Shown here piece after piece: positions 7,380-52,483 of a stretch of 64,000 nt of DNA (positions are counted from its first letter, which is position 1; every line of letters begins with the position of its first letter). The notes under the pieces are model-generated. The model worked only from the letters and a program-made list of their open reading frames with translations. It was not told the DNA's origin and searched no databases. The stretch spans positions 1 to 64,000 of the forward strand of contig JAKSYS010000131.1 of assembly GCA_022925895.1 (NCBI GenBank). Reading direction: 5' to 3'. A program made the translations under genes and the position numbers. The DNA is from Fragilaria crotonensis. Its lineage: Eukaryota; Bacillariophyta; Fragilariophyceae; Fragilariales; Fragilariaceae.

Positions 7380-7393
7380 AAGGCCCCCTTCAA
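7380..7393. repeat. Target site duplication of LINE1, left copy
   Basis: AAGGCCCCCTTCAA here is repeated at 21457-21470; the last A is ambiguous with the adjoining A run. The 13-14 bp duplication brackets the minus-strand LINE1. Confidence 0.85.
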
Positions 7394-7601
7394 AAAAAAA
7401 ACCCCAAATCTAATTTAACGTGCTGCCGCTGTGTTCAGATTAAAAACACTCGACCCACACGGCTAGACACTACCGTGTACCAGTAGCGGCCAGCATAGTA
7501 TACGTCCCTCCAAATTACTTACTTGAGCTTCTCGAAATAATGTGTGATCGCTTTAACTCCTTGTATGGCCTTTGCCTTCGCACGTTTGATACTCTGTTTA
7601 A

Positions 7602-12009: not shown

Positions 12010-15000
12010 ATGGTAACACCTGATCATTGTACGGTTTGCAACAAGAGTTTCAAGAGACTTTTGCACCACCTTAATCAGAGTTTGGCATGTAAATCTCATT
12101 ACATGGCAAGTGACAAAGCAGCAACAACAGTGCCCTCCATTGTATCAAACATCGGCCACGTGAAAACCGGTAATTTGTTGCAAGGTGGTACTTCTCGCAC
12201 TTTCCGTCCAAATTTGAGTTCTCCTTTGTCCGATGGATTGCTTCCAGTATTGGAGAGTGGGGAATTGCTGGAAAGGCCGACGATGAGCTGCGTGTTGAAG
12301 ATGTCAACGAAGTCGATGACTACATTATGTTTGACGACGACGGTATTCCCGAGCAAGGCGATGCTGACGATCAAGACATTTCAGAAACTGAATCGGAGGA
12401 AGGTCCTGATCTCAGCGTTTTGGATTTGTACTTAAAACTGTTCAAGCTGCGAGCAAACCCGCTCGGTCTTGCGCGTTTTCTCGGGAGGAAAGAGTCCAAA
12501 TTGAGTTGTTGCAGCTTCTTAGGGATCTGAAGTGTCCTCTCAAAGCATTCACCCTAGTACTTAAGTGGGCTGCTAAATCAAACGGGAGCGGCCATTCATT
12601 CCGTGAGGGATTTCAACCAACTCGTGAGAAGGTGATCGCAAATTTATTTGAAAGGTACAACATGAAAGGATTAATCCCGAAAGAGAAGAAATTGTACCTG
12701 CCTTATACACAGAGGACCGTCTCGTTGATATTCTTTGACGCCAGTGAAGTATTCGCATCGCTACTCTCATGTCCCACGCTCAATCAAGATGGGAATTATT
12801 TCTTTGACAAAGCAAAGGATCCATTTGTTGCACCAGAAACATCATCCCACGTGGGTGACATCCACACAGGCCGTTGCTACAGAAAGACATACGACGCCCT
12901 GATTAAGAAGCCTGATGTCGACATGCTCCTCCCCTGTATCATGGCAATGGACAAGACATACATCGACATGGCAGGCAGACTCCAGATGGAGCCAATAACA
13001 ATCTCTCATGGTCTTCTGAACCACTCAATACGTCGGCTCCCAATTGCCATGCGAATCCTCGGATACATCAATCACAGCACCCCCCGCCCATCTCCCTTCA
13101 GATTCCGAAATAGATGCCGAGTTCAATGCACCCGCTGACTTGCCAAAGGGGACCGCCCGTGTTGAAGACCCGCTTCGGTGCCCCAAAGACGTAAGTTGGT
13201 CAACGTTAATCCTGAACGAGACACACATGCAGATCCAGTTCATCCTAGAGGAATCCGGTTTTTTGAGATTACAGAATCATGGTTTCCGATGGGATCTTAG
13301 CTACAATGGAAAGATCCACCCCGTCGTGTTCCACCCGTATGTACCCTTCATCATCGGTGACACAGAGGGGCACGACCGTCTTTGTGGTCACTACACCGCC
13401 CGATTTTCACAGATACAACAGCTTTGTCGCATCTGCGAATGTCCCACGTACTTGAGTGGTTATTCCAAGTCCAACTTTCGCCACCGTGTTCCCAAAAAAA
13501 TCGATGCTCTTGTGAGTAAGGGCCACACCGTTGAGCTCCAGTTGCTGTCCCAGAACTATCTTAAGAATGGATTCGCTGAGGTTAGGTTTGGTCTCCACAA
13601 TCAGCGCGGAATATTTGGAGCCTGCCCAGGCGAAATGCTCCATTTGATTTCCCTTGGTTGGTTTAAATATTGCCTGCAGGCCTTCTCAGCCCAAGCTGGT
13701 CCCAATTCAAACGCATTGAAACAATACGATGTGCTGTGCGCTAAGTTGGGCAGATCATTGTCCAGACAGAGCGATCGCGACATCCCCCGAACAAACTTCC
13801 CCAAGGGGTTTTCATCAGGATCCAATCTGATGGGGCACGAGATGACAGGGTGTCTTTTAGTCACATTATTTGCACTGCACACCACCTACTTCCGAGGCAT
13901 CTTCGAGGTTGGGAAAAAGGTAGCTGTAGTAGGGGATGACCAGAGGTTTCGTTATGAAAACCACATTCAAGATTGGATAGGAGTTGTTACATCTCTCCTG
14001 GTGTGGCACCAATGGATGAAACAACCGATGATGTCAAAGAAGATGGTCAAGCGTTCGCACACCTGCTTGCAGTGGCTGATGCGTGTTGTCGCCGAAGTGG
14101 CGCCCCGTCCAGGAGCAATGGGAAACAATACGATCAAGACGCACTTGGTACTGCATCTGTGCGAAGACATCCTTGACCACGGTGTTCCCGACAACGTGAA
14201 CAGCGCCTACGCTGAGTCAGCTCACATCCCACTCGCGAAGGCGACATCCCGAAACACACAGAAGCGAGCCATATCCTTCACAAAACAAGCAGCCAATCGC
14301 TATACTGAAAATTTAGTCATTTCACTCGCTTCTACAGACGTAGAGAATGACGTCAAACGCAACGTCGACAGCAGTGCAGCTGACGTTGACACCCCGCTCG
14401 ATGGTAAGGGTGGTCGTCGTTTTACCTTGCATGGGAGGAAGGCAATGAACGCGCCACATTTCGCTGGACTCGCCCGCGCTCCGGAGACAACTTGGAGATG
14501 GCCCATCTTTCGCACCGAGTAACGGCCTTTCTGAGTCGACATTGCCTGCCCAAAATGCCGAAGGGAGAGCTCCCATGCTTCACGTCCTTCAACGACGAGG
14601 ACGGCAACAATTACCGCGCCCATCCTTGCTACGACGGCAAGGCATGGAACGATTACGCGATGATCGAGTGGGAAGGGTACCCACAACCCGAACCGGTGTT
14701 CATCCACACGTTCGTTGACCTCCGCGGGCTTCCGAAAGGAGACTCCATTGACATCAACTCGAATGGACAGACAAAATTGACAGCCGGGTTGTACGCCGTC
14801 GCCCACTCCTTCAATCCAGTTGACGAAGGTGACCTCAACACACCGAACACCCTCATAGGTCATTATACCCCACATTTCCATTCCTTTAACGACAGACATC
14901 CAACCCTCTTCCTGGTGGATGTTGAGTCCATAAGGTCACCGGTACTAGGTATTCCAGATGTTCAATTTGGAGTGAAACCTCCAATGAACGAGCGGCATTA

Positions 15001-22037: not shown

Positions 22038-22061
22038 CCCGTCTGTGTCCCCATTTCGAGC
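22038..22061. repeat. Left arm of 24-bp inverted repeat
   Basis: Exact reverse complement of 38523-38546, 16.5 kb away. Candidate terminal inverted repeat of the MULE-type element. Confidence 0.7.
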
Positions 22062-22475: not shown

Positions 22476-23625
22476 ATGGATCCATTTGTCCTCAGTCGCA
22501 TTACTGCTCTTGTTGAGGTGAATAAACAATGGGTCACTGAATTTCTTCCTATAGAAGTTCAGCATGTTGAAGGGCAGGTTTGTGAGGACGAAGTTCAGGT
22601 TGTTGGTGAGGACAAAGTTCAGGTTGTTGGTGAGGATGAAGTTCAGGTTGGTGACAGTGAAGTTCAGGTTGGTGACAGTGAAGTTCAAGTTGGCGACGGT
22701 GATGAGTCCATCAGGACTGTTAATCTTGCTGACTTCATTGGGACCGGAATGCGTAGCAATCGGGATGACAATTGCAAGCACCTTCGTCAATATCTGCCTC
22801 GTCGCTTTAATTCCAACAGTCCCTCATCCCGAAAGAGCATGTGATCCCATTTATTGCAGTGGCATGTGCCCAGGCAGGTTTCAAAGTGGCATCAAAGGTT
22901 GGGAGAAGGCATCGATAAACTGCGATTCTTTTGTCAGCACTCTTGAGCTCATGGCGACAAGAAGGATCTTTTGAGGAACAAGATTGATGACAACGACAAT
23001 GACAATGATAATAACGACAACAACAACAACAACATCAGCCAGTACAAGTCTTCCGGTCGTTCGTCAAAACGCATTCGCCCCTCAGCAGCAAACAAGGAGT
23101 CAATATGTCCATTTGCATTCTCACTATATTGGGAACCAAATGATGGCCTTAACGGCAACGTTGCTGGACGCTGGTACTTTTGTGCGGATGGGACAGAGTG
23201 TAAATCCATGAAGGTCACCAAAGGAACCTGCTGATGTCCGATTGTCGTATCACACTGTGCCGCAATTGGAACTTGAGTTATCTAGGCAATGCATTTCACT
23301 GAATTCAGAGCCTGCAATTGTGCAGGCTCTGATTGTGGAGCAAACTGGCATCTCTCTTTCCTCTGACCAGCTGAGGAGGTGTGCTGGCACACGAAAATCA
23401 GGTCGGTCCTGGTGGCAGTACTGCAGTGGACTTAGGTCAATCACCAGCTGAAAGACTTGTGCACTACTTGCGCAATGAGGAAGCCTTGATTACATTCTTC
23501 TTGTACGACAATACAGCCACCCGGCTTCTCACTATAATCAGGACTGGGAGGAACAGGGGATCCAGTTCTGAGCACAATCATTATTGCTCACGTGAGACTG
23601 ATGCTTCAACTCTTTCCTATGCTGA
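22476..23625 (+). pseudogene. MULE-type transposase N-terminal region (FAR1-like zinc domain), frameshifted
   Basis: Starts MDPFVLSRITALVEVNKQWV. Residues about 35-75 are imperfect repeats of VQVGDSE/VQVVGED type encoded by GAAGTTCAGGTTG units. After the first stop (22842) further coding is recognisable in shifting frames: IPFIAVACAQAGFKVASKVG, LRFFCQH, an Asp/Asn-rich tract from (GACAAT/GACAAC)n at 22984-23037, then CPFAFSLYWEPND...GRWYFCADGTEC...GTC with a following H, the pattern of FAR1/WRKY-like zinc domains in MULE transposases. QSPAERLVHYLRNEEALITF then leads to the catalytic core. A one-base loss in an A run near 23636 joins this part out of frame to the core. At least four frame breaks. 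Confidence 0.55.
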
Positions 23626-24730
23626 ATCGGTGAGAAAGCTCTTGGTCTTAGTGGGAATACAAAGCTGCTCCTTGGTGCAGCTTGGGCATCAAAACAGCAG
23701 CAGCGAATCTTTGGTATGTTTCCGGAAACACTGTGTGCCGATGTTACCATGGGAACCAATGCTGAGAAACGGCCCTTGCTTGTCATGACAGCGAAGACTT
23801 CTGAGAACCGAATTGTCCGTGTGTTCCAGGCATTTCTACCATCACAATGCCGCTGGATTTTTGATTGGTGCTTCCGTGATGCATTTGTGCAACTCCATGG
23901 AAGTACCTCTGTTGAGCGGAATCAAATTATTTTGACTGATGGCGATCTTCAGATGTATTCCCCCCTTGTGGATCTTATTGGCGACCGTGGTAGTCCGTGG
24001 CGGAACAGTAAGCATATGTGTGCAACACACACAGTGCCAAGACCTGCTAGACCTGTCATGGGGCCTAATCTTTACGTAACTCCCCCAGGGGCCTTCACAA
24101 ACTTTCACCAAGATGGTAAGCATAAAATGTTATGATGCAGGCGCACTACGTATGCCCACACTGACAGTTCACGGTTTAGGTTTTGGGACAGTCGATTCAG
24201 GGCATCTTTGCCTATCTGGTTATAATGAAGTTATACTGCTTCGTAGATTGCCTAAGGGGCACGACACAAATGCAATGCTCAATACTCTTGGTGATGATGT
24301 TTTCAAAACTCCTCATTACAATGAGGAACAGGTAAGGATTCCACAAATAATTCCTTGGAGAATTCAGCACTGTCCGACTTTGAAGTCCACTTTAGTCTCC
24401 GTTGTTGTGCATCATCACAGGAAGGAATGAAGTTATGCAAGTGGCCAAGCAGCGATGAAATCATGCAAATGAAATCACTAAAGTAAGTATTTATGACTTC
24501 TCATTCCTCATTTCAGCGTGTCAACTAACACTTTTGTCTATCATAGCTATTGCCCAGTTGTTCTGGTATTGGGACCTGGTGAACATTTACACATCGGGAA
24601 GGGTAGGTTACACGCATTTCAAAAGCTTGGGTTGGAGGCACTGGCAAAAGATGATTGCCATTCATATCTGAGGAAGGAAATTTTAAGGAAAAAGAAAGTG
24701 GTACGAGATCCTACACAGTACAAGAAATGA
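23626..24730 (+). CDS. MULE transposase core fused to JmjC dioxygenase domain (spliced, four exons)
   Basis: Exons 23626-24115, 24180-24331, 24421-24482 and 24547-24730 give one open frame of 295 residues. The introns (64, 89 and 64 nt) all have GT...AG ends and keep the frame. Residues about 1-35 (ALGLSGNTKLLLGAAWASKQ, FGMFPETLCADVTMGTN, EKRPLL) and ILTDGDLQMY are the first and second Asp regions of a MULE transposase. Directly after SKHMCATHTV the protein continues GPNLYVTPPGAFTNFHQDGF, GTVDSGHLCLSGYNEV and, after the third intron, VLGPGEHLHIGKGRLHAF: the His-x-Asp...His iron site of a JmjC 2-oxoglutarate dioxygenase. The third catalytic residue and C-terminus of the transposase are absent, so transposition activity is unlikely. 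No start codon belongs to this frame's upstream end. The last codons run into the tandem repeat. It could be a captured host gene (Pack-MULE) or a designed fusion. Confidence 0.65.
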
Positions 24731-24893
24731 CACGGTAGTACGAGATCCCACGCGGTAGTACAAGATCCCATACAGTACAAGAAATGACACGGTAGTACAA
24801 GATCCCATGCAGCAGTAGTACAAGATCCCATACAGTACAAGAAATGACACGGTAGTACGAGATCCCATGCAGCAGTAGTACGAGATCCCATAC
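24697..24893. repeat. Short tandem repeat block, left piece
   Basis: About five imperfect units built from GTAGTACGAGATCCCATAC and CAGTACAAGAAATGACACG. The same units lie at 37094-37210. The two pieces were one array until LINE2 entered it. Confidence 0.8.
24875..24893. repeat. Target site duplication of LINE2, left copy
   Basis: GTAGTACGAGATCCCATAC, 19 bp, identical to 37094-37112. Since this lies in a tandem repeat, part of the identity could be due to the repeat itself, but the position exactly at both LINE ends supports a true duplication. Confidence 0.8.
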
Positions 24894-25024
24894 AAAAAAA
24901 AACTGAACTCTAGATTAACGTACTGCCGCGGTGTTCATACCAGGAACACTCGACCCGCACGGCGAAACCTTGCCTTTCACTTCAGACAAGCCCCCGCTTC
25001 CATGCACTTTCATGCATCCTTTAC

Positions 25025-28000
25025 CTATGGTACCAGTGATATCAGAAACTGTCGAATAGATCTTGTGCCGGCTCGGATCCTCGTTGCCACTCGTTTCAAA
25101 TCCGCTTTGATAACTGGTTCATGTATAGCAATCCAGTTTTTATTAACCCAGTTTGGGCGATCATAATGCTCCGTTACCTCTTCATACATCAGGTCTTGCA
25201 CTGCGGTGCTCAACTGCGCCTTGAGGTCATACAGTTCCCTCAACTTCCTCTGTAATTCTCGTGTCTCTACCTGCGCTCTGGAGCGTTCATCAGCCCCATG
25301 TAAATCTTTATTCCGGCTTTCCCATACTACCCACCATTGTTCCCACAGCAGCCCGATCATTGCAACTTGCCACCGGTGTCCCGTTTGTTTCTTTGTCGTC
25401 TTTTTGGTATGTGCGTTCTCATCTGCTTTCTGTGCGTAGAAAGTGTCTTGCAGGTCACTCCATTCGTTGCTGAAGCGCCCTAGGAACAGTTGCTGCCACC
25501 CCAATGCGTTCTGTTGTTTGATCAAACGGTGGACATCGGACGGATATGTTCGGAAGTCCAGGATGTAGTCATCGGTATCATGTTGAAGCCATCCCGTCAA
25601 TGCGTCGCTCAGCACCCGTTTAAGGAGCGGCCTCGTGCGGAGGGAGTCGCATTTCTCAGCCACAGCCGTTACCGCCTGAGCTCGCCAAGTGGCGCGGCTT
25701 TCGTGTGGACATTTCAATATGTGGCTCCAGTCCTCCACAGCGGTGTGGCATAGAGGGCACTGATTTCTTAGTAGATCCCCTCGATGTACGTTTTTACATG
25801 TCGGGAGAATTCCATGGACCAGTTTCGTATAGTGAGTCTTCCTCTTGATTTTCTGCCTAAGGCTCGCGCCATGTGCTGTCCAATTTACGTTTTTCATCTC
25901 TGTGGTCGACCACCCGTATCTCTCCTGAATATACTTTGCGAGACCCGGCTGTGTCGCTTGGTAGCGTATGGATGTTTCGTAGTTTTTGGTCGTGCTCCCA
26001 TTTGGTGTGACCAGATGTACGCCCGCTGTCTCCGTGAGGAGTACTACTGGTCTGGACATTCCATGCTCGCATTGGTATGTTGTGGCCATCAAATCGGCAT
26101 CGACATTTAGTTGAGCCAATAATGGAAGACGATCGTATGCCTTTTTTCTATCCTGATGCCCTCGAACGTATTGGAGTGTAATGCCAGGGCAACGATGGAG
26201 TTCTGTCAGAATGCTACTCAACAAATCCCATTCGGGTCCTTTCACATCCAGATCTTTCACTCGTTTCAATTTGTTGTATAAAGTCCCGTCCGTTGCCTCG
26301 TCCAATGGTTTGACTGTGATTGTTTCTAGCAAGCTCTGGCTATCTGTTGCCAAAATTCCGCGCCATGGTTCCATTTGGGTCGTGAACTCTGACAATCGCC
26401 GAAGGAAACAAAGTATGGCTAACATGCCGTACGCTTCCGCTCGATAAGAGTCGACCTTCGCGCCTCGTGCCGGTCCCATTCCTCGTGCTACCCGATCCCC
26501 CAAGTCGGAACTAATCATCCAGCCATACGAACCTTGATTATCTGTCCAAACGGACCCATCACTCACTGCACAGACTCCATGGGACAAGACATCGCTTACT
26601 GTAAAGGGATCTTCGGAGAGATCAACCTGTTGAAGCAATTCAGCTTCCCATGGGGAGAGCTGACTCACATATGCATCAAACGTAGCTGCAGGGCGTACTC
26701 GAGTCTCTGGGAAATCCGTTGCTGCACTATTGGTCAAATTCCACAATGTTGGTGCAATGAGTTCCACCGCGCTAGGCGCTGAGTGTGATGGTAAATTTTC
26801 CCATGTTCGGTACTGTGTTGTTTCTTGGTATACCCACGGGCTGACAGTCTGGATACAGCGTGTATATTCCTCTCCTTGGATTCGAACCCACAAGATTGTA
26901 TCGGATCCGCAGAGTTCCTCGTGTTCGAAATATGCTTGGTGTTTTTGTCGTTGTAGTGGAGTTGGCAAGATCCAAGGGCCTAACGGTTCTCGCAACTTTC
27001 CATCTGCGTCGCTCCACAGCATCTTACACATTCGCCTCCATAACTGCCACTCGGGTGAGGACGGACGTTCTTGATAGATTACGTTTCCATGAGTACGGCT
27101 GCTGACCAATGATGGGAATCCCATCCACTTCGTTTTATCCAAGTAATCTCCTGTAATGACTGTGATATCGGCCAGCGTCACTGCCTTCAGGTATAAGCGA
27201 CAGTAGTTGAGTCGTCGGATCTCGGCGTTGGTGAACTGCTTTGACTCTAAGATAGCATCCATTAGGTGATAATCGTATCGTCGCTGGAGCTTTGGGATAG
27301 ATGGGGCATCCACTTGCAAATACATGTTTGTCTCTGCGAGGAATTCTCGTAGGGAGCCAATCCATTTAGACTCCAAGTGTGGTAATGCCGAGTGGACTTG
27401 CTCCAAGATTGAGTACGATACTCCGGTCTGCTGTTGGAACCACGACAACGCGACTCGGAGAAGTTTTCCTGCAGTTGACTTTAACCTCCAATGCCTTACA
27501 AACATGATAACTTGGCCGACTCCCTGCTGAACATATAAGTGCCGAAAATTTGCGCCTCCCAATTCCAAGGGTCCATATAGGATTTCCTTTTTTGTGTTCC
27601 GATTATACCCGCATCTTGCTACTATGATGGTCATCGCCTGTCGCTGGATAGTCTCGAGTTGTTTCTTTTTTAAGGAGGAGCACGCAAGTGGGTACCCAAC
27701 ACTCGGGAGGTAACATGCGTAATAATACGTCCACGCTTCCAATTTTGTCAGAGGACATGTCCACAAGAACGCAACTGCTTCGTCACTTTTTCGTTTTAGT
27801 TGGCGGAACTGTTCCATCTGATTTCCGATGGGGGCCTTGTAATGGCCAAGAGTTTTATGGGCGTCATACACTGATAGCACTTTCAAGTTATGGACTTCGT
27901 TTGTTTGACGATCCGTGACTTGAAGTTTATCTTGGAATTTTTCATGAGAGGGAACTAGTACTGGTGCTCCTTGGCCCGAGAACTTCCATTGCATCACATG

Positions 28001-28179
28001 ACTCGAGCATTTTGACAATTCGAGAGCTCCACCACTTGCGGTGAGTAGATCACTCCATTCTTGAGCATTTTTCTGAGTTTGGGTAAACAGCTGTTCCACC
28101 GTTGCAGTTGACCCATCGGACGCAAATTGGTTTGTTTGGCCATTACAATGGTCAACAAAACTAATCATTCCCAGTTGGA
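25025..28179 (-). CDS. LINE2 ORF3, C-terminal part: end of RT, RNase H, zinc motif
   Basis: Uninterrupted over more than 1040 codons downstream of the nested LINE3. It opens with QLGMISFVDHCNGQTN: RT motif C, where the second catalytic Asp is His (LINE1 has FVDD), so this copy should be RT-dead. The thumb region follows, then RNase H (AVSDGSVWTDNQGSYGW; YRAEAYGML; LATDSQSLLETI; YVRGHQDRKKAYDRLPLLAQ with LNVDAD), giving the D-E-D-D set, then CPLCHTAVEDWSHILKC (zinc motif, about 25,720) and an RNGLHGAD-like block and the GTRSIRQF terminus. The coding sequence upstream of LINE3 is at 31049-33896. Confidence 0.85.
28162..28179. repeat. Target duplication of LINE3, left copy
   Basis: TAATCATTCCCAGTTGGA is repeated at 31031-31048. 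The first T is ambiguous with the LINE3 T tail, so the duplication is 17-18 bp. It lies in the RT codons QLGMI of LINE2. Confidence 0.9.
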
Positions 28180-31030
28180 GTGGAAAAGCGAAAACATCAC
28201 AGCGTTTCTCTGGAGTAACCATTTCACTCGCGAAGAAGCTTGGACGTTCTATCGCTCATGCTATGTTCCAGCCGTTGCATATCCCTTGACATGTTCTTTT
28301 CTTTCGCAGTCGCAATTAAAACATATCCAATGTAAGGCAATGGCTATCATCACTGCAAAGTGCGGTTTTAATCGGAATACCAAAACGGAAGTGTTGTATG
28401 GACCCAAGAATTTGGGCGGAGCAGAATTTCGTCATCTCATCGTCCAGCAAGGCATCTCTCAGACCTTGTATTTCCTTCGGCATTGGCGGTTGGAGTCCAC
28501 CATTGGCAAGCTATTGAAGTCTACAATGGCTTGGACTCAATTATCAGTCGGCATGTCATATCCTATCTTGGAACGAACTCAGGATTCACTTCCTCACCTC
28601 GAAGCCAAATGGATCGGAAGTCTTCGGCAATTCCTCGGATCAATCTCCGCCTCAATATATCTTGACGACTCGTATGTTCCGCAACCGCAAAGAGAGAACG
28701 ACATATATCTTATGGACGCAATTGTCCACTCAGACCGATTCACACCGACAGAGATTCGAAAACTGAATTATTGTCGCCTGTATCTGCAGGTTGTCACACT
28801 ATCGGACATAACGAAGCCGAACGGACATGAACTCGACCCAAGCATGCTATTAGGGCGATCATCATTGATGAGCTCGCGCACACGATGGCATACCGTGCAT
28901 CAAGATCGACCGTCAAACAAGGAATGGAAGTTGTGGCAGTCGGCCAACCGTCTTTGGAGTGATGAGAAAGGACGATTACTCAGAGCCTTGGGAGCGTGGA
29001 CGCAGCCTCTTTCCAAACGAAGGTTTCAATCCTTCGGGTATATTCACAGCCGCTCCTTATTCGCCTCACCGCAGACAACACTTACAGTACATCGTCATGT
29101 CGGTCATGATAGATTTCGTCCATCATCTTCGGTAACATCACGGACATATGCCCAACTGCCAGAACAAGCGCGATCTGCAGAAGTCAGCGCGGAGGAGGGT
29201 GGCTATTGGAAACTTCATGGTACTCCATCACAGACTATTTGGAAGCCGGTCATCCCACGTCGGCTACGGCCACGTTTGAACTGTTCGTTAGCACTCTTGA
29301 ACCATGGGAGGCCGAACTCCTGAATGATGTCATCTCACGTTGACCCATTTACACTTTGCCTGGAGTTAACGCCCGGTTTTCGAGCGGTCAGCGATGGTTC
29401 CGTGAAGTTAAAGCGACACGGGTCTTTCGGGTGGGTCATTAGTACTTTGCGAGGAGAGCGAATGGCCACAGGTATGGGTCCTGCCAGAGGACGATCACCA
29501 AATCCTACAGAGCAGAAGCATGCGGCATGCTTTCCTTCCTCAGATTCTTACTTCGGATCAAGGAATTCACTTACATGCATGAACCCTGGAGAGGCGTGCT
29601 GGCCACCGATAGTCAAGGAGTCCTTGACACGTTGCAAGAGGGTGATCGAGATCCTCAAGAACAAGAAGTTCCGATTGACTTGGATCGCGGAGAAGTTATT
29701 CTGGATTGCCTTCGACCAGATTGGGACATTCTTATCGAAATTCAAACGGCATTAAAACAATTGCCTCGCGTCACTCTTCAATACGTCAAAGGCCATCAAG
29801 ATGACACGACCCCTTACCACTCCCTGGATCTCATGGGTCAGCTCAACGTGGACGCCGACACTCAGGCTGGTATATACAATCATGAATTCGGAGCATATCG
29901 AGGGAACGTGCTTATGTCCCCTCAGGCACGAGCCCATTTACATCTTCCAGACGGGACCGTCACTAGTCGGTATTCTGAAGTGTTGCTGCACGAAGCCACC
30001 ACCAAACCTTTACTTGATTATATCCAACGCAGGCAAGGATGGGACGCATCAACCCTCCACTCCATTCACTGGGATGCACATGCATTGGCCATCAAGAAGA
30101 CTACCGTTCCACATACCCATTTGGTCAAGCTTCTTCATCGTATGTTACCCACCCATGCGCAGTCGAACAAGTTCGACGGCGGTTCCCAACGTGCCCGTTA
30201 TGCGGCTCGATTAATGAAGATTTCGCTCACATTCTTCGCTGCGAGCACCCCACTCGCGAACGATGGCGCAACGAGTTTTGTCAGCCATGCGTGACCTTCA
30301 TATTCAAACCAACACGTCTCCTCGGTTGGCGACTTAATGTTAGCAGGTCTACGCCAGTGGTTTCTCTCTTCGGCAGTCGACGACCCGACGATAGCATCCG
30401 AGTCTTATCATCCGACTCTGCAATCTCTTCTACGCCACCAAAGTCACATCGGATGGGACCAGTTATTTATGGGAGATTTTTGCAGCGAGTGGTGTGTGCC
30501 AACAGCGATACCTCGCAAATCACCATTGCGCAACTGAAGACCTAAGCCGGATGGGTTTGACGTGGCAGGCTAGCATCATCCAGTTTTGTTGGCGTTGGTA
30601 CACCTTTGGAAAACACGCAACCAAGAAGTTCACGGTCATGACGAGGAACGCAGAGGCGATAAGACGAGACGTTCGATACCAATTGGATAACATCTATCGA
30701 CATCGCAGTATGTACGAGACACAAGTTCAACGGTTACTGCATCGAGATGCAAGCGACCATGATCAGCAAGCACTCAGTGTCACTAAGAATTGGTTATCGG
30801 TGAACCGACCTATTTTCCAAGAGAGTTACAGGAGGGTCAAACAGCGAGCTTTACGAGGCATGCGTTCCATTCGGGATTACTTCGGTCATGGCTGACGCAA
30901 GCACCCAGAATATTTGTGTTTGTACTGGTGGCTACTATACATCCCAGCGTAGTGCCCACCCGTGCGAGTCGTTTGCCTCCTGTCATGGGCTTTGCGGCAG
31001 CACGTTAAATAGATTTCGTATTTTTTTTTT
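28180..31030 (+). mobile_element. LINE3: 5'-truncated LINE inserted in LINE2 in opposite orientation
   Basis: 2.85 kb on the plus strand. The 5' end is cut in the RT region just after motif C; the 3' end carries the family terminus (GCGGCAGCACGTTAAATAG at about 30,995-31,013) and about 10-11 T. The 17-18 bp duplication on both sides proves insertion into LINE2. Same family as LINE1, LINE2 and LINE4 but divergent in sequence. It is more damaged than the element it sits in. Confidence 0.9.
28181..30895 (+). pseudogene. LINE3 RT end, RNase H and zinc region, frameshifted
   Basis: Starts WKSENITAFLWSNHFTREEA (RT thumb), continues AMAIITAKCGFNRNTKTEVL, and stays open to about 29,020. After that the reading moves between frames near 29,020-29,300, 29,330, 29,500, 30,160, 30,300 and 30,500. 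Recognisable parts: RNase H (RAVSDGSVKLKRHGSFGW; GVLATDSQGVLDTL; YVKGHQDDTTPYHSLDLMG with NVDAD), zinc motif CPLCGSINEDFAHILRC, IGWDQLFMGDFCSEW, and the terminus RALRGMRSIRDYFGHG at 30,895. It has about six frame breaks in 2.7 kb. Confidence 0.8.
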
Positions 31031-31048
31031 TAATCATTCCCAGTTGGA
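31031..31048. repeat. Target duplication of LINE3, right copy
   Basis: Identical to 28162-28179. Confidence 0.9.
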
Positions 31049-33896
31049 CCTCGGTCGGATTCTCGGAGGATCCCACGTACGATGCCGGAGCGGCAACTTG
31101 GTCGTACCCATCGAGTAACGCGCTTGATAGCATGCACCATATGGCCGGGGAGTTTGCACTCCCTTGGCCTGTGCCGTAGATCGGGAAAGAGTCCTCGTGT
31201 CGGTAGCCTGTTGGTGCCAGGCCCAATTCGGTGCGAATGCGATATTCTGCATTTGCAAGTGTTGAAGCGTTGGTCTGTGTGACCTCCAGCGGGACTCCGT
31301 ACTTCCGACTGGCAAGCATCCCAACATTTGGTATGATTCGATCGTAGCATGCCGTAGCGTCGTAATTCGTTAGAATAACTGGCTTCCTGGTTGCCCTCGA
31401 GATTTCGCACTGTAACTCTTCTATAAATACTGGGTCCGGAGCGCTTCGGGCCGCCCGTGATCCATATTGTCCATCATTAAGGGAGTTGCTATCTTCGGCT
31501 TTGTGCATCGCTTCTCTCCACTTTACTCCTAATGCGAGGTTGAAGTCCGCTTCATAGATATGAATCACTCTGGTGCGGTGAAGGCGAACATTATCGGAAT
31601 CTTTGAACAAAATTGTATTCGCAATTGTTTGCCATCGACGATACGAGTATCCTCTCTGCAGCGCATAATTAAGCATGTGTAGATGTAACGCAAACAATTC
31701 TTTCTGTTTGAGATCAAGTTCGTCACGTTGTTGCTTGAATTCCTCCGTGAGCTCATCATCGAATGCGTCCGTCGTGTAACTGTGCCGTGCGATCAGGGCC
31801 TTGAAATGGCCGAGATGAAGCCCGGATGGGGATGTTGTCGTAGACTCTGTCCAAACTCGGAGCTTGCCTCTAAATTCCTCCTCCGTAATGGTCGGCTTCG
31901 AGGGATTTTTGTAGATGTCCTGTACTTTTTCCAGATGACTCAACAGACGTCGCACATTACTTTCTAATGCTGTACTATCGTACGCTCCATCTAATATTTG
32001 CTGTCCATGAGCGGTTGCTCCGTCGAATCCTAATTCGGTGGCTAATGGCGGTATTGTAAACGGTGTGCCAAAGGCTTGACCAAAATGAGTGCGATTTCTT
32101 TGCTGCAGCTGGTGTAGTACTTCGGTAGGTACGTCGATTTGGACCCAGTCTGTACATGCTTTAGGGTCGTCGCCCTCGAGCCTTGGAATTTCCACCCTCG
32201 TGACCCCTTGTCGGACCTGTTTTCTCCTTACATTTGCCAGTTTCCTGAACATGTTGTTGATATCCTCCGCTTTCTTGATTCGTCGCAATTTCATTGCTGT
32301 TTTATGATCCGCCGATTCTATAGAATTCTCAAGATGTGCGATCTTCCGTTGGAATTCTTGGTCTCTGCGTTCCGTACTTGTCGCTATGAGGTCTTTAATT
32401 TCCTTGTCAATGACTCTCATTTCACGCGAACATGTCTGAATGGTATCGAGGAGGTTGAACAATGTGTCCAACTTCGCAATGTCACCACGGAGGACTTCTT
32501 GATGATTCAATCCGGTTTTCAGTGCTGTGAGTTGTTTTGCAAGAATGATCTTTTTTCTGCGTGCCTGTGCTAATTCGACTGACCATGCGGGTTCGAAGAA
32601 TTTTGGAAGATCTTTTTCTGCGTTCAAACTTGCGTCTAAAACATCGCGATCGATGCGTTCTGCATACATATGGCGATTTCCAGGAATTAGGAGGCGGGTC
32701 GAGCGTTCAAACGCATTACTCTTAGTAAGCAATTCGTGCTTCCTTCGTATGTATGCGGTTACTTGCTTATGGTTGCGCGTCGATAATTCCCGTTTTGTAC
32801 GATGGACGAGCGTCTGAGTCTCGGACCCAAACAGCAATTCTGTGTTGAAGTCCATAAAGTATCCCCGATGATCTGTTGCGATCTCCATGTTAAACGCATC
32901 ATATCCGGCATGAATAATTGCGTTGCATACAGAGGGGCTCGCGAGTGCATAATCTAAACGTTTCGATCCTCTTGCATACGTTGCTGGTGGGGCAGATGAA
33001 TGGCGGATTGCCATGACATCCATAAGCTGGTGGTCGCCTGCCAATTTAATCATACCATCGGGATCTGTGCCAAGGGGTTCATTGAAGTCGCCAATAAGTA
33101 AGATTTCATAACCCCGGGATTGGTAATCTGTCAACCATTTTGATAAATCGCGGCGGAACGCAACTCTTGGGTTCGTTACTTCGTCTTCCGAGTTTAACAG
33201 CAGACTGACGTGTTGTGCTGCCACTGTGATCTTACCGACTACACCGCCTTTGACAATGGGTTGATACGCTGAGATGATTGCAAGTGTTCTCCCGGCCTGT
33301 CCTTGGTATACTTGGCTTGACCACCGACCCCACTTGTCTCGGTCTTGCTTGCATAAACGGCCAGTGAGCGAGCCCACGGTCATGACCATCGTGCCTCCTG
33401 GTTTAAACTGAGTTTGGAATGGAATTGGTGACGTACCCATAACAAGACGGCTTCGTTCCCAGTGTTGATGTGCTGTGTCGAACATGATTTTTCGTACGGA
33501 GGCTTGTGTCGTGTCCACATTGTGTTCTTGACCGCAGAAGACATCCGCTTGTATCTCTTTGAGTGAACGACAGACCGAGTCAAATTTGCCCCCTTTTGCA
33601 TCGAGTTGGAGACCATTGAGGTTTATTGCATATACTCGCGTGATGGCTGCGGTTTTTTGTTGACGTTCATCGCCCCAAGGGTTATTGTCCCGACTGTTAG
33701 CCATGCTCAGTTTCGTTGCTCGTTCCACATACTGTTCTACTTCTGGTCCGCTGTGGCGTAACATGAGGTTCCGCCATTGATCTTGAGCTCTCTGTAAAGC
33801 TGTTTGGGTTTCTGGGTTGATACCTGGTGATGGTGGTGGAGTCGTTCGCCGACTTCCTCCATCTATGCTATCGCGAAGCCTATGCCACCTGTTCAT
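31049..33896 (-). CDS. LINE2 ORF3, N-terminal part: endonuclease and RT motifs A-B
   Basis: Start ATG 33896-33894 (MNRWHRLRDS) overlaps the ORF2 stop by 4 nt (ATGA), suggesting stop-restart translation. Residues about 85-320 are an AP-endonuclease-like domain: YAINLNGLQ, DVFCGQEHN (catalytic Glu), ISAYQP, EILLIGDFNEPLGTDPDG (GDFN), RLDYALAS and ATDHRG (terminal His). After a helical linker with SPSGLHLGHFKAL comes RT: NTILFKDSDNVRLHRTRVI, LTNYDATACYDRIIPNVGM (motif A Asp) and FPIYGTGQGSANSPAIW (motif B). The frame is open up to the LINE3 insertion, which separates it from motif C. About 950 residues, all clean. Confidence 0.9.
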
Positions 33897-36241
33897 GAGT
33901 CCGCCGCCCCAGCTGGACCCGTTTCGAATGTGTATTGGGGATCCAGGGGAGCTGGCGGAGTAAAACTCGAGTTCCTGCTGTGTGCTTGTGCTAGCGAGCG
34001 GGTATTCATGTTGGTGAATCTTGGGGTGACCGCATCCGGAGTTGGTGATTGGGTCAGTGTGTCGTTGTCGGAGTGAATATCGTCTGTTTCGGTCGCTTCA
34101 AAGCGATTGTTCAAATCGACACAAACGTCCGCTTGGGGTGAAAAGTCATATGCAACATCATCATGATGTGTCTCTGTCTCGACTTCATCATCGTTATCGT
34201 CGTCAATGGTCATATCACCAAGGACTGATGACTCTTCGAACTGGTCAAAGAGCATCGAGGCATTATCCTGCTCACTATGAGGATGGGGAAGTGTGACGCC
34301 TTCTCGAGTTCGCTTTGGTGGTGGGGATCGGATCATGCCTTCTGCTGAGGACTCTGTCGTTAGTAGACCACTCGTATGGTAACCGCTAGGCCTCATATTT
34401 GTACTCTGGGTTCCGCCTGGTATATGAGTCAAAGGTTGATGTACTTGTGACGCATTCCGAACTGCTATGTCCTGGGCCATTAATCCAAATAGGCGTGCGA
34501 GTTCTTCCCTGATATCCGTCATCGAGCTCGTTAGAAGGCTCACATTCTCTCCCGACGCTACCAGATGCTCTCCGATTTGTTCAAATTGTGTTGCGGTGTT
34601 GACTTGAATTGCAGACAAGCTTCCCGAGATTTTTCCTTGAGTATCCACTGATTCCGCTAATTGCTTTACCACTTGCTGCAATTCTGACTGGACTTCTTCA
34701 ATCTTTTTACTAGTATCTGTCGCAAAGGTCTGGAACTTATCTTCGAGGGATTCCAATTGTTTCGATGCTGCTCGCCCTGCTACTTGCAGGGATTCCAGCT
34801 TTTTCTTCTTTGTTGCGACTTCCAATTCTTTGAGTTTGGTTTGGTATTTGGAGTCCGATGCCAATGTTAGAGATTGCGTGGATGCTGTACTAAGTTCGTC
34901 AGTACCCACAGATAGTCGGCCTTCGAGACTGGACGAGTCGTCTTCGCTTACTTGTTGGTGTTCCTTCGATGTGTCTGAAGAAGGCTGATCTGACAACGCA
35001 GGCGGAGTCGTCCATGCGTTGTTTACATGCTTTGTCTTAATCTTCTGTGTACTGCCTTTCTGCTTTTTGTCCTTTGTTGATGACGAGAAAGGTGGCTTTC
35101 CCTGATACGTTGGTAGTTGTTGCCATACGTCAGCTGTATATAAGGTATCCATTAAAGAAACATTAGAATCAGCTGCCGTTTTGATATGTATCTCATCTGG
35201 GAGATCAAGTACGCTGTCCCTGAATCGTGCTTCCCGATGACTTGGGGGCGAAAGCCTTAATCGATACAACCTCAATTCTTCCTTAGCTTGTTCATAGTAA
35301 TGTGCCGGTACTAGAAGATATGCCTTTCTCTCTTTTGTTCCGTTGACGACGTCACACAGTGCTGATGATTTATCTGGGAGGGTTAGTGTTCCTGCCCATT
35401 CGCGTGTTGATCGTTTGATGATACTACCGTCATCACAATACTCGATGCGCTGCTGGTCTAAGTGGAAAATGACTGGAGCCAAGTGTAGCGCTTTCACAGA
35501 ATGCAACCATTTTTCATGAAAAAGGAATTGATTATTGATTTGAGCATCCGTCATTGCGCTGAAAGCGTGTCGGAAGAAAACTGCTGTTCCCTTGCCTTGC
35601 AGGACGTGTAACAAGGCTTGACACACAGGTGTTACATGACTCGCCATTGGACCCAGGTGTGGAATTATCTGTCCCATTGGTGTCTTCTTGTACCTTTCAA
35701 TATCAAAGTATGGTGTCGCTTCCGGCATCAGACTTCGAATATATTGAGTGTAACGATGTGTCGACGTGGTATTTGGCGCCTTGAGTAAGATGTATCCTGC
35801 AATAACAGATTTCCCGCCTGTACTACTCGAATTGGAAACCTTGATTTCGACCTGGTTGTCTTTCAGTTGCTGTTTCTTTCCTGGACCGTTTTGCCATTTA
35901 ACTGGATTGTCTGTAAAGCTTAGTCGGACACCGAATATAATTTGTGATGTCGTGTGGATGAATGAGATTTGGGGGGAGATATAATCCCGGAGTTCCGTTC
36001 CTGTCAACTTGGATATGGTCGAAAATGTTTTCAGATCTTTGCTTTCCCACCTGTACAACATACCATCGTCGTCGTCAAGTACCGCAGAGAGTAACATTTG
36101 AATTGCCTGATTGAGAGTTTGTTTATCGGTTTCGTACTGTTGGATGCCACCAGGGGGCTTCCACCTTAATGTCAAACGATGGGTACCGTCATTGACTGGA
36201 ACGTTCTTGAACGGTTTCAACCTCAGAGTGCATCTGACCAT
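33893..36241 (-). CDS. LINE2 ORF2: coiled-coil protein, function unknown
   Basis: 782 residues, uninterrupted, from MVRCTLRLKPFKNVPVNDGT. Residues about 1-330 form a folded-looking domain without a family I recognise (contains YIRSLMPEATPYFDIERYKK and FFRHAFSAMTDAQINNQFLF). A Ser/Lys-rich linker follows. Residues about 455-590 are a strong coiled coil (KLKELEVATKKKKLESLQVA ... IEEVQSELQQVVKQLAESVD). The C-terminal 180 residues are acidic (DDDNDDEVETETHHDD) and Ser/Pro-rich. By position it is the nucleic-acid chaperone/assembly ORF of the LINE, like ORF1 proteins elsewhere, but no RRM or CCHC motif is seen. Its start lies inside the end of the ORF1 region (53-nt overlap) and its end overlaps ORF3. 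Confidence 0.8.
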   Translation of the reverse strand: MVRCTLRLKPFKNVPVNDGTHRLTLRWKPPGGIQQYETDKQTLNQAIQMLLSAVLDDDDGMLYRWESKDLKTFSTISKLTGTELRDYISPQISFIHTTSQIIFGVRLSFTDNPVKWQNGPGKKQQLKDNQVEIKVSNSSSTGGKSVIAGYILLKAPNTTSTHRYTQYIRSLMPEATPYFDIERYKKTPMGQIIPHLGPMASHVTPVCQALLHVLQGKGTAVFFRHAFSAMTDAQINNQFLFHEKWLHSVKALHLAPVIFHLDQQRIEYCDDGSIIKRSTREWAGTLTLPDKSSALCDVVNGTKERKAYLLVPAHYYEQAKEELRLYRLRLSPPSHREARFRDSVLDLPDEIHIKTAADSNVSLMDTLYTADVWQQLPTYQGKPPFSSSTKDKKQKGSTQKIKTKHVNNAWTTPPALSDQPSSDTSKEHQQVSEDDSSSLEGRLSVGTDELSTASTQSLTLASDSKYQTKLKELEVATKKKKLESLQVAGRAASKQLESLEDKFQTFATDTSKKIEEVQSELQQVVKQLAESVDTQGKISGSLSAIQVNTATQFEQIGEHLVASGENVSLLTSSMTDIREELARLFGLMAQDIAVRNASQVHQPLTHIPGGTQSTNMRPSGYHTSGLLTTESSAEGMIRSPPPKRTREGVTLPHPHSEQDNASMLFDQFEESSVLGDMTIDDDNDDEVETETHHDDVAYDFSPQADVCVDLNNRFEATETDDIHSDNDTLTQSPTPDAVTPRFTNMNTRSLAQAHSRNSSFTPPAPLDPQYTFETGPAGAADS

Positions 36242-37001
36242 TTTCTGTTTTGTTGTCCTGACTGTTGTTGTCTTCCATTTGGTAATCTTCCTCCTCTTCT
36301 TCGTGGACTGTTAACACTTGAGGTAGTTTGAAGCTGGTTTCATTGTCTTCGATACCTTTGGATTGCTTAAGTTGGTTATGAAGCTCCTTGATTGCACCTG
36401 GCCGGGATATTACTATGCAATTGTGTACTCTCGTGCTCCTTTGGTGGACTTTTATCCCTACGTCTGCCTCGTTCAGGGACATCAATCCAGCATTCTGTGT
36501 TGTTTCTGTCCTCGTCTTCCATGGACCATCCCTGTCTTGGAGGATTTTCCACTCCTTCAATGATGCAAGGTATCCACTTGGAGGATGCTGGATCATAGTA
36601 TGCCACATAGATATGGCTATAGTTCGTCGACCATTCTTGCAGCTTCTCGAAATTTCGAACTCTCTATCCAAGTGGTACATAAATTGATACCAAATCGCTG
36701 TGCACTTCAAGGTTTAACGTCAAAGTTGTTCCAGACGTCTTCAAATTCACTGCAATCTTCATATCCAAAAACCTAATTCCAAATATCTCGCCCAACCAGT
36801 CGGCGTTCCACCATGTTTTTGGTAGCGATTTGCAAGTTCATTCCGACGACTGCGTTCACTGTCCGTAAACCAATCTGGTCCATCTGGATATGGAATATCT
36901 TCCCACTTGTCGCAATCAAACCCATACACTGAGTGCTCTACCTCCTCGAAGGTAGGGTACGCTGGGGGTGGCGGCATCGCCGCTTCGTCGGTCATGGTCA
37001 A
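36189..37001 (-). pseudogene. LINE2 ORF1 region, small acidic protein, frameshifted
   Basis: Begins MTMTDEAAMPPPPAYPTFEE at 37001, about 90 nt from the element's 5' end, and continues VYGFDCDKWEDIPYPDGPDW, GTPTGWARYLEL. After about 36,770 the likely protein continues in a second frame (FLDMKIAVNLKTSGTTLTLN, then YVAYYDPASSKWIPCIIEG) and returns near 36,420 to IKVHQRSTRVHNCIVISRPG and the acidic tail VHEEEEEDYQMEDNNSQDN, ending at 36189. At least two frame changes and an in-frame stop. No family recognised. Alternatively several tiny ORFs are meant; comparison with another copy would decide. Confidence 0.5.
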
Positions 37002-37093
37002 TCAACGGTTGGTAGCGCAACGATTTCCTAATCAAGCTACGTACGTACGGACTGCGGACAGACCGAACACTCGTAAAACTAATTTAGAAAATT

Positions 37094-37112
37094 GTAGTAC
37101 GAGATCCCATAC
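37094..37112. repeat. Target site duplication of LINE2, right copy
   Basis: Identical to 24875-24893 and directly at the 5' end of LINE2. Confidence 0.8.
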
Positions 37113-37210
37113 AGTACGAGTACGAGAAACGGCACGGTAGTACAAGATCCCACGCAGCAGTATGAGATCCCACGCAGCAGTAGTACGAGATCCCAGACAG
37201 TACAAGAAAC
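37094..37210. repeat. Short tandem repeat block, right piece
   Basis: Continues the units of 24697-24893 (GTAGTACGAGATCCC, CACGCAGCAGTA, CAGTACAAGAAAC). Confidence 0.75.
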
Positions 37211-38220
37211 AAACGGTAGTCCCATACAGTACAAAAAGTGGCACAGTAGTACAACAAGCCGCGCCAAAATGAAATGAAGTAACAGCAAGCATCAACAAAA
37301 CAGTAACAAACATCCATCACAAACACCGCAAAAACATCATTGCACAACTTACCTGACTCCTCTGAACTGTGAGCGTTGCAGAAACAAGCAGTCCCATACA
37401 GTACAAAAAGCGGCACAGTAGTACAACAAGCCATAAAAATGAAATGAGTAACAGCAAGCATCAACAAAACAGTAACAAACATCCATCACAAACACTGCAA
37501 CAACATCATTGCACAACTTACCTGACTCCTCTGTGAACTGTGAGCGTTGCAGAAACAAACGGTAGTCCCATACAGTACAAAAAGCGGCACAGTAGTACAA
37601 CAAGCCGCGCCAAAATGAAATGAAGTAACAGCAAGCATCAACAAAACAGTAACAAACATCCATCACAAACACTGCAACAACATCATTGCACAACTTACCT
37701 GACTCCTCTGTGAACTGTGAGCGTTGCAGAAACAAACGGTAGTCCCATACAGTACAAAAAGTGGCACAGTAGTACAACAAGCCGCGCCAAAATGAAATGA
37801 AGTAACAGCAAGCATCAACAAAACAGTAACAAACATCCATCACAAACACCGCAAAACATCATTGCACAACTTACCTGACTCCTCTGTGAACTGTGAGCGT
37901 TGCAGAAACAAGCGGTAGTCCCATACAGTACAACAAGCCGCGCCAAAATGAAATGAAGTAACAAGCATCAACAAAACAGTAACAAACATCCCTCACAAAC
38001 ACAGCAACAACATCATTGCACAACTTACCTGACTCCTCTGTGAACTGTGAGCGTTGCAGAAACAAACGGCAGTCCCATACAGTACAACAAGCCGCGCCAA
38101 AATGAAATGAAATAACAAGCGTCAAAAAACAGTAACGAACATCCATCACAAACACCGCAAAAACATCATTGCCCAACTTACCTGACTCCTCTGTGAACTG
38201 TGAGCGTTACAGAAACAAAA
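37198..38220. repeat. Satellite-like tandem array, six units of 153-177 bp
   Basis: The landmark GAGCGTTGCAGAAACAA recurs at 37371, 37542, 37719, 37895, 38049 and 38202 (GAGCGTTACAG in the last), giving periods of 171, 177, 176, 154 and 153 bp. Units contain ACAACAAGCCGCGCCAAAAT, AACAGTAACAAACATCC, CATCATTGCACAACTTACCT. The shorter periods come from small deletions in the right-hand units. Long minus-strand reading frames across the array (Cys/Phe/Tyr-rich) are by-products of the repeat, not genes. Confidence 0.9.
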
Positions 38221-38522: not shown

Positions 38523-38546
38523 GCTCGAAATGGGGACACAGACGGG
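38523..38546. repeat. Right arm of 24-bp inverted repeat
   Basis: Exact reverse complement of 22038-22061. Confidence 0.7.
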
Positions 38547-39686: not shown

Positions 39687-39700
39687 GAGGAGTGCTCAGA
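39687..39700. repeat. Target duplication of LINE4, left copy
   Basis: GAGGAGTGCTCAGA, identical to 41199-41212. Copy D has a single, uninterrupted version of this site (AGGAGAGCTCAGAGTATTTC near 56970), an empty-site paralogue. Confidence 0.9.
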
Positions 39701-41198
39701 AAAAAAAAAACACAACCTCTAATTAACGTGCTGCCTGCGTTACCTGGAGTACAACCAAGAATCGACCCGCACGGCTACATACAAGTTCGAAAGAAAACTT
39801 GCGGGTAGCGTGTTTTTGTTGCCACTTGACAAGAGGGATTAACCGGTTTCTGCCCCCCCTGTCGGTTCCAAAGTATGTCAGAATAGACCGCATACCTTGA
39901 ATGGCTCGTTTCGTTGCCCGTGTCACGCTATCGAAGACAGCCGTTTCATGAACGGCTAACCAATTGGACATGTGTATATTGCCTTTCCCGACATGAGTAT
40001 GCTCTGGTTGCGCAAACACCGGTGACATGCTCGGCTCCACCTTGTTCTGTTGTGCGTACACTTGATGAATTCGCCGCTCCAATTGAGTCCGTTGAATGCG
40101 GCGCTGATCGTCCGCGTCTTTGCCGTGAACTATGGAGTTTCTATGTTGCCATAATTCGCGCCATTTATTCCAGATCGTGGTGCTGATTTCCACGACCCAG
40201 CGATCTCCAGCCGACGTGGGTTCGAGTAGTTGTCTTTGTTCCAGGTAACAGCTTTGAGCTGTGGCCCATTCCATGCTAAACCGAGCGCTAAACAAATGTC
40301 GCCAGCCAATAGCAGTTTGGGTATCAGTGATGGGCTTGAAAACTGAGGGGTATTCGCCGGTGGGCATGTGGTCTCCATGAGCAAGCCAATCCTGAAGACA
40401 TCTAAGAAGATAGTCTCGGAGTCGTGGCGACGTGTGGAGCTCGTCGCAACGGGTGCGAAGGACCCCAACAAGCTCCCTCCGCCAGGTTTCTGTTTCGGGG
40501 CATCGGAGGAGATGATCTCGGGTTTCTTCAACCGCATTGCAACAGGGACATAAGGGAGAAATATTGCTGTTATATCGATGCTGGACTCTGTTGGTTGGAA
40601 GGATATCGTAGACCAATTTAGTAAAATGAACGTGATGAGATCGTTGACGCCGCAGGGCTTTGCCATGAGCCTCCCAGTGAATTGTCGTAAAAACTGCTGG
40701 AGTCCATGAGAACCGTTCTTGCAAATACGAAATGCTCAGAGGTGCTGTATATGCTTGTCGAAGGGCTTGGTCATATCGTGACGTGACCGTTCCTGTGGGC
40801 AAATGTAAATGAACTCCCGTATGTCGTAGGAGGCGCGCTCGAGGTGCAGGTTCTGGATGTCTTCTCTGATGGGTTGAAGCCAGGTGATCGGCCTCGATGT
40901 TCAGCTGTGCCAATAATGGAAGTTGGCTAACCGGTTTATCGTCGTCTTGATGGCCTTTGATGTGCTCGATCGTCGTCGCCGACCAAGTTATCTTAACCGT
41001 GTGATAAATTTCGATAAGGACGTCCCATTCTGCAGAGAGAGGATGGAGATAAACTTCGGCGGGGTTGACCCTGGCGGGTGTTGTGCTGGTATTCATGGTG
41101 GGAAGGAATGTGTGGACCTGGTGTACAACTGCTTTGTTGTCGCACGCCATGTGTCCCTCAAACGGGAGTGTCCTCATGGTGTACTCTGTGATGTGGTG
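39701..41198 (-). mobile_element. LINE4: 5'-truncated LINE in the upstream region of LRR gene B
   Basis: 1.5 kb on the minus strand with a 14-bp duplication. The 3' end has ten A on the plus strand (T tail in sense) and the family terminus GCAGCACGTTAATTAGAGGT. Its single open frame suggests it is young. It pushed the distal promoter part of gene B about 1.5 kb away. Confidence 0.9.
39723..41198 (-). CDS. LINE4 RNase H end and zinc region (5'-truncated)
   Basis: Open from the truncation point to the stop, about 490 codons without a break. It enters inside RNase H (GHMACDNKAVVHQVHTF; EHIKGHQDDDKPVSQLPLLA with LNIEADHLA), followed by GVHLHLPTGTVTSRYDQALR, the zinc motif CPCCNAVEETRDHLLRC, IGWRHLFSARFSMEWATAQ, WRELWQHRNSIVHGKDADD and the end block AIQGMRSILTYFG. 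Being truncated it has no RT or endonuclease and cannot act alone. The sequence differs enough from LINE2 to be another subfamily. Confidence 0.85.
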   Translation of the reverse strand, partial: HHITEYTMRTLPFEGHMACDNKAVVHQVHTFLPTMNTSTTPARVNPAEVYLHPLSAEWDVLIEIYHTVKITWSATTIEHIKGHQDDDKPVSQLPLLAQLNIEADHLASTHQRRHPEPAPRARLLRHTGVHLHLPTGTVTSRYDQALRQAYTAPLSISYLQERFSWTPAVFTTIHWEAHGKALRRQRSHHVHFTKLVYDILPTNRVQHRYNSNISPLCPCCNAVEETRDHLLRCPETETWRRELVGVLRTRCDELHTSPRLRDYLLRCLQDWLAHGDHMPTGEYPSVFKPITDTQTAIGWRHLFSARFSMEWATAQSCYLEQRQLLEPTSAGDRWVVEISTTIWNKWRELWQHRNSIVHGKDADDQRRIQRTQLERRIHQVYAQQNKVEPSMSPVFAQPEHTHVGKGNIHMSNWLAVHETAVFDSVTRATKRAIQGMRSILTYFGTDRGGRNRLIPLVKWQQKHATRKFSFELVCSRAGRFLVVLQVTQAAR

Positions 41199-41329
41199 GA
41201 GGAGTGCTCAGAGTATTTCCGGTAGTCTGTCGCAGTAGATCTGATTAGAAAGCTTGGCGACCAATCTCTGGTGCTGCAGGAATCCAGGAGAGTTACTTTG
41301 CTGAGGAATTCTCATCTGTTTTGCCAAGC
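41199..41329 (+). promoter_or_regulatory. Proximal 5' region of LRR gene B with lost start
   Basis: 41199-41212 is the right LINE4 duplication. GTATTTCCGGTAGTCTGTCG and AGTAGATCTGATTAGAAAGC match the region before copy D. The stretch that encodes MENRG...DDV in other copies is deleted here: sequence passes from CTTGGCGACCAATC straight to TCTGGTGCTGCAGGAATCC, which corresponds to an internal position (SAGIQE) of copy A. Confidence 0.55.
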
Positions 41330-45001: not shown

Positions 45002-45016
45002 GTTGTCGGGGAACAT
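45002..45016. repeat. Target duplication of LINE5, left copy
   Basis: GTTGTCGGGGAACAT, 15 bp, identical to 46373-46387. Confidence 0.9.
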
Positions 45017-46372: not shown

Positions 46373-46387
46373 GTTGTCGGGGAACAT
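46373..46387. repeat. Target duplication of LINE5, right copy
   Basis: GTTGTCGGGGAACAT, identical to 45002-45016. Confidence 0.9.
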
Positions 46388-50317: not shown

Positions 50318-50340
50318 TCTAGCTTAGCGCAGAGGAAGCG

Positions 50341-52183: not shown

Positions 52184-52483
52184 ATTTTGAGAACTACTGG
52201 TAGTAGTATGGCATACGACGTGGAGTGTATTATTAGACAACAACTATAGAACCTTTTGCGGACTGAAAGCGTCGCTTTCCTTGACCTCATTGTTGTGTTT
52301 ACTTGTAGGCTCCTCAGACAGGACGAGACGATTGATAGTACTCGGAGTAGTTGTAAATTGTTTGAGTACTCTAGAGTTGATTTGATCCGAGGTCTTGGAG
52401 ACCCAATCGCTTCAAATACTTCGACGCTTCAATTCACGTGCACACACCCCACCAAAAGCACCGATTTATAATTCTTGCTTCTG
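52184..52483 (+). promoter_or_regulatory. 5' flank of LRR gene C
   Basis: Shared blocks: TTGAGAACTACTGGTAG, TTGACCTCATTGTTGTGTTT, CTCCTCAGACAGGACGAGAC, then AGTTGATTTGATCCGAGGTC, TTGGAGACCCAATCGCTTCA and TTCACGTGCACAC (E-box core) and CTTGCTTCTGATGG at the start. Confidence 0.5.

Follow-up and report, generated by a model that had tools for sequence, protein, structure and literature searches.

A MULE transposase fragment spliced in frame to a probable JmjC-like segment in the diatom Fragilaria crotonensis

Within a window of 64,000 nt (the whole stretch of Fragilaria crotonensis DNA analysed), we see that the front half of a MULE-type transposase runs, through a single spliced reading frame, into a second half that is probably JmjC-like; a locus we are inclined, with slightly better than even confidence, to interpret as a dead, deletion-derived MULE remnant that holds an intron-bearing JmjC-like fragment. 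An earlier note on this DNA, which described a MULE core and a JmjC domain joined in one frame, is partly confirmed: the spliced join, its introns and the transposase front half are true, whilst the sequence makes a JmjC identity of the remainder plausible but does not establish it. That account left out the apparently broken transposase frame upstream, the minisatellite in which the frame ends, the inverted repeat bracketing the locus and the LINE lying inside it.

The spliced frame starts at position 23626, crosses three introns and reaches a stop codon at 24728-24730, encoding 295 residues that include FPETLCADVT, LTDGD, FHQDG and HIGKGRLHAF. Read directly from the window sequence, the introns lie on the forward strand at 24116-24179 (64 nt, GTAAG...TAG), 24332-24420 (89 nt, GTAAG...CAG) and 24483-24546 (64 nt, GTAAG...TAG), and the claim of one frame continuing across three GT-AG introns of 64, 89 and 64 nt is borne out. 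When dinucleotide shuffles of 24037-24727 were spliced under a GTAAG donor rule, none of 2000 was open, and on this test we reject the idea that the introns are chance gaps; looser donor rules leave 61 of 2000 shuffles open for GTA (~3%) and 289 of 2000 for GT[AG] (~14%). Of 732 stretches taken from elsewhere in the window, long ORFs included, 104 are likewise open under the GTAAG rule and 245 under GTA. The splicing pattern is well supported given the strong donor consensus, and otherwise moderately so. Codon scoring with eleven ORFs of the window as the training set gives positive values for both halves of the frame (0.105 and 0.107 bits per codon), and values at or below zero in every frame across the junction region (24000-24105); at the far end, the last ten codons and the stop lie inside the minisatellite.

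The transposase half (23626-24036, forward strand) corresponds to the RNase H-like core of MULE/ZSWIM transposases, but to its first two Asp regions only. Taken alone, the 137-aa first half passes the Pfam cut-off for PF21056 (ZSWIM1-3 RNase H-like; 33.2 bits against 27.2) and falls below that for PF10551 (MULE; 23 bits against 27.6); with the whole 295-aa frame as the query, the scores are 30.8 and 20.8 bits, respectively. The match takes in both Asp regions (ADVT and LTDGD), with alignments that end at profile positions 113 of 128 and 80 of 99. There is then a stretch, SKHMCATHTV, which we take to resemble the C-x-x-H stretch of MULEs, past which the frame departs from the transposase family. 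No complete D-D-E triad is found: the third acidic region is absent, with the frame passing out of the transposase shortly beyond LTDGD and the C-x-x-H-like stretch, and the earlier remark that the third acidic residue is missing at the junction agrees with both this exit and the incomplete Pfam alignments. Scanning all six unspliced frames of the window with a SWIM-like pattern of our own gave no match; by this one pattern, neither the zinc finger nor a displaced C-terminal half of the MULE was found there.

Working upstream, the N-terminal part of the transposase would occupy 22478-23632 (forward strand), where three-frame translation and codon scores suggest an open frame that shifts several times. 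The codon scores over 22478-~23632 also switch frame, noisily and with near ties at 22560-22785, and three pieces of the stretch give no Pfam match above cut-off. The upstream transposase frame thus appears to be broken several times, as judged within this copy rather than against an intact relative, which makes an intact fusion gene unlikely; we reject such a gene on the partial domain matches together with the upstream breaks. The idea that the locus yields a working transposase-dioxygenase fusion protein can call upon the open, 295-residue spliced frame, but has to contend with a transposase core and a JmjC domain that are each only half there, a broken frame upstream and a stop codon within a minisatellite; we regard it as extremely improbable. 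Whereas the junction had previously been offered as either a deletion or a true domain swap, a working swap is now disfavoured, because the upstream transposase appears frame-shifted and the window, scanned with the SWIM-like pattern, did not yield its C-terminal half.

From 24037 onwards, the frame is divided between the remainder of a first exon (24037-24115), which is in frame with the transposase and holds FTNFHQD, a second (24180-24331) and third exon (24421-24482), and a fourth (24547-24730) that holds the distal His (GRLHAF) and has its 3′ end in the minisatellite; all are on the forward strand. These exons are stop-free, unlike the transposase front, but the segment lacks the front of a JmjC domain. 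The iron ligands of an HxD/E...H set are found as the motifs FHQD and RLHAF, and a Thr is present three residues before the first His; the position of the 2-oxoglutarate Lys of KDM2/7, however, aligns with an Asn, and the two His are 96 residues apart versus 72 in KDM2/7. Both the Lys and the Thr of JmjC domains serve in 2-oxoglutarate binding. Diatom proteomes contain many predicted proteins with FHQDG-x-GTVDSGH-like motifs that are labelled JmjC.

To score this resemblance we took, as two blocks, the segments that surround the iron ligands in PHF8, KDM7A and KDM2A. With both blocks in order, 3 of 100,000 shuffles reach the score of the JmjC-like half, a value that is somewhat flattering, since the KDM2/7 family was picked after the sequence had been seen; as single blocks, HxD gives a p-value of 0.00062 and the distal His one of 0.039. 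The two-block score is 38.7; tiling the other ORFs of the window into 255 pieces, a scheme that leaves out some ORF ends, gave no score above 17.0. Searches with whole families or structures point the other way: at E up to 10, neither the 158-aa half nor any of three shorter versions of it hit a Pfam family, phmmer found no match in the PDB and, for a shortened query, only three irrelevant matches (E 0.4 to 0.82; no JmjC), and hhalign against a three-sequence KDM2/7 profile aligned the distal His block only, with 22 of 300 shuffles scoring equally well or better. The proposed JmjC iron-binding set, FHQDG and HIGKGRLHAF, is thereby upheld as regards its motifs and by a strong two-block result, but not by family profile, PDB or hhalign. 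The second half might instead belong to some other, or lineage-specific, protein with motifs that resemble JmjC, as the empty Pfam and PDB searches, the hhalign shuffles and the unconserved 2-oxoglutarate Lys would allow; against this stand the two-block result, for all that its family was chosen post hoc, and the fact that T-x-F-H-x-D and G-x-x-H-A fall in register with KDM2A and PHF8. We give this reading some weight whilst thinking it unlikely, and hold the second half, from its motifs, to be probably JmjC-like. It has no second copy in the window, matches at 37.1 kb being minisatellite and a weak match at 40.0 kb falling within a LINE ORF.

Both halves lie inside a 24-nt exact inverted repeat, with its left arm at 22038-22061 (forward strand) and its right arm at 38523-38546 (reverse strand). 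This is the longest exact inverted match in the window (60 Markov resamples reached 22 nt at most), it extends outwards to 28 of 30 identical positions, and it encloses the transposase, the JmjC-like exons and both tandem arrays in the orientation expected for termini; we infer that it is a candidate for the terminal repeat of the element. Subtracting the outer LINE leaves a bracketed unit of 4310 nt (~4.3 kb). No 8-11 bp target-site duplication lies beside the repeat, there being only two 5-nt matches within the 37 and 41 nt that surround the two outer ends. An inverted repeat that encloses both halves lends further weight to the transposon setting proposed earlier; no MULE-type target duplication was found. 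Rearrangement could also have brought a piece of a MULE next to a host JmjC gene in decay, as chance neighbours, with the inverted repeat unrelated to either, as might suit the missing target duplication and a window crowded with nested mobile elements; that the window's longest inverted repeat encloses both, in a terminus-like orientation, argues against this, and we consider it unlikely. The second-longest exact inverted repeat (21 nt; 4116-4136 and 4496-4516) has its arms ~400 bp apart and resembles a small inverted-repeat element.

The minisatellite that terminates the frame occupies 24697-24894 (60-nt unit, ~3.3 copies) and, as seen by BLAST of the window against itself, continues at 37094-37254, on the other side of a 12.2-kb LINE (24895-37093, reverse strand) that sits inside it and splits the 4.3-kb unit. 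The LINE is flanked by an exact 20-nt match, GTAGTACGAGATCCCATACA, at 24875-24894 and 37094-37113, part of which could be the array itself because the flanks lie in repeat array. Its ORF at 31005-34097 matches an endonuclease (PF03372), with reverse transcriptase (PF00078) below cut-off; two further ORFs (25025-28255 and 33893-36310), for which Pfam gives nothing at E up to 0.01, are given to this outer LINE by position and resemblance. A second LINE (28180-31030) is nested inside the first, with an 18-nt direct repeat, TAATCATTCCCAGTTGGA, at 28162-28179 and 31031-31048. LINE-like 3′ ends at 24870-24990, 39690-39800, 7370-7480 and 30940-31055 (sense) share a GTTAAT/GTTAAA motif followed by poly-T; poly-T instead of poly-A is unusual for LINE tails. 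The second tandem array (37205-38219, unit ~175 nt; from self-BLAST and the sequence) carries GAGTCAGGTAAGT on the minus strand of its units, reminiscent of a recurring splice donor, as well as a repetitive open frame of 169 aa.

Several other elements are seen in the window. An ORF at 1524-2069 matches Plant_tran/DDE_Tnp_4 and is presumably a Harbinger-like transposase; another, at 12410-13138, matches the Plavaka transposase (PF18759, 34.5 bits), and after it comes a long ORF (13020-14522) that hits no Pfam family. Pieces of a Copia-like retrotransposon (RVT_2, GAG-pre-integrase) lie on the minus strand at 43341-50323. Related ORFs are found at 41249-42931, 52472-53692 and 57000-58452, of which the first matches leucine-rich repeat families and the others are similar to it.

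In the account that we prefer, as the simplest to fit, a MULE copy would have carried part of a JmjC-like gene, located downstream in the same orientation, in a unit of ~4.3 kb before the later LINE. A deletion or capture near 24037 may then have removed the C-terminal half of the transposase along with the front of the JmjC-like gene, the remaining parts being joined with the frame kept by chance, a one-in-three event, after which the copy would have decayed and, later still, been split by LINEs. Such a copy could move only with transposase supplied from another, and would no longer yield a working transposase or dioxygenase. Retention of the introns favours capture or inheritance at the DNA level over an RNA copy. 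In favour of a dead MULE we count the Pfam matches, the spliced frame, the iron-ligand blocks, the bracketing repeat, the lack of a SWIM-like match in the window and the upstream frame changes; against a dead MULE holding a JmjC fragment we count the missing target duplication, the empty Pfam and PDB searches, the hhalign shuffles, the change of Lys to Asn, the spacing of the His pair and frame breaks that are themselves deduced.

A related possibility is that the transposon family itself carries, as an accessory gene, a JmjC-type enzyme that counteracts the silencing of the element's chromatin, and that the sequence once lying between transposase and enzyme is gone from this copy. Transposase and then enzyme do lie on one strand inside one inverted repeat, the JmjC-like exons are stop-free where the transposase front is not, and precedents exist in SET and TET/JBP genes (PMC12730594) and a ParB-methyltransferase (PMC12477816). 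Saying this, a second copy was found neither in the window nor in the virus and prokaryote collections searched, and the front of the enzyme is incomplete; we consider the proposal improbable. Slightly more doubtful is its extension, that a MULE lineage encodes its own JmjC-type dioxygenase, perhaps stripping silencing marks from the chromatin of the element, and that this locus derives by deletion from an element with two genes.

Searches for relatives of the JmjC half gave 7 pattern matches in virus contigs and 19 in prokaryote genome contigs, none of which was confirmed, and an alignment of the query with human JmjC segments gave likewise 19 pattern matches and none confirmed; the MULE half had no match in virus contigs, and motif patterns had 0 matches in virus and genome contigs. 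As the collections searched consist of viruses and prokaryotes, this absence says little about algae. In the literature, judged from titles and the starts of abstracts, we recognised no report of a MULE with a JmjC domain. JmjC proteins of diatoms have been described, including a SET-JmjC gene model (PMC3145265). PMC12730594 deals with the TET/JBP genes that DNA transposons of fungi carry and also names MuDR and Harbinger elements of Phytophthora that bear SET genes; the word JmjC occurs in it 0 times. PMC12477816 reports a ParB-methyltransferase protein in an Ectocarpus Sola element, and giant Ectocarpus elements with accessory genes and transposases that are often pseudogenised. Chromatin enzymes in DNA transposons are, then, already known; a JmjC within a MULE would be a new form of this. 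SET, TET/JBP and anti-silencing cargo mean that mobile elements can manipulate host chromatin, and a MULE with a JmjC would, if true, extend the activities borne by transposons to demethylation or hydroxylation, of histones or otherwise. A single broken copy is a hint, not proof, that MULEs may pick up or carry chromatin enzymes; the locus does supply exact sequences (both halves, the junction and the inverted repeat) for a genome search.

Set against known systems, the second half shares with KDM2/KDM7 (PHF8, KDM7A, KDM2A) the T-x-F-H-x-D...G-T block and the G...H-A block, but its identity to the first sequence is 20-26% when aligned with gaps, the His-His spacing is wider, the Lys is replaced and no database match was found. 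With MULEs the locus shares the RNase H-like core with its first two Asp regions, and the 24-nt repeat at its candidate ends falls within their 14-500 bp range of terminal inverted repeats; it differs in that no third acidic region, SWIM-like motif or target-site duplication of the usual 8-11 bp was found (PMC6446971). The MULE-Diatoms group has terminal repeats of 123-124 bp and SWIM, its target duplication being entered in the same source as 'No TSD and not indicated' (PMC6446971), whereas here we see a 24-nt repeat and no SWIM-like match. Pack-MULEs, described there alongside MULEs with additional ORFs, have lost their transposase genes (PMC6446971); half a transposase is kept here, but an intron-bearing, host-like gene fragment between inverted repeats is common to both. 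The elements bearing SET (Phytophthora MuDR/Harbinger), TET/JBP (fungi) and VANC (Arabidopsis) are gene families across many elements, in contrast to our single broken copy, yet all, like the locus as we read it, place a chromatin-type enzyme within a DNA transposon; TET/JBP and JmjC proteins are, moreover, both Fe(II)/2-oxoglutarate dioxygenases.
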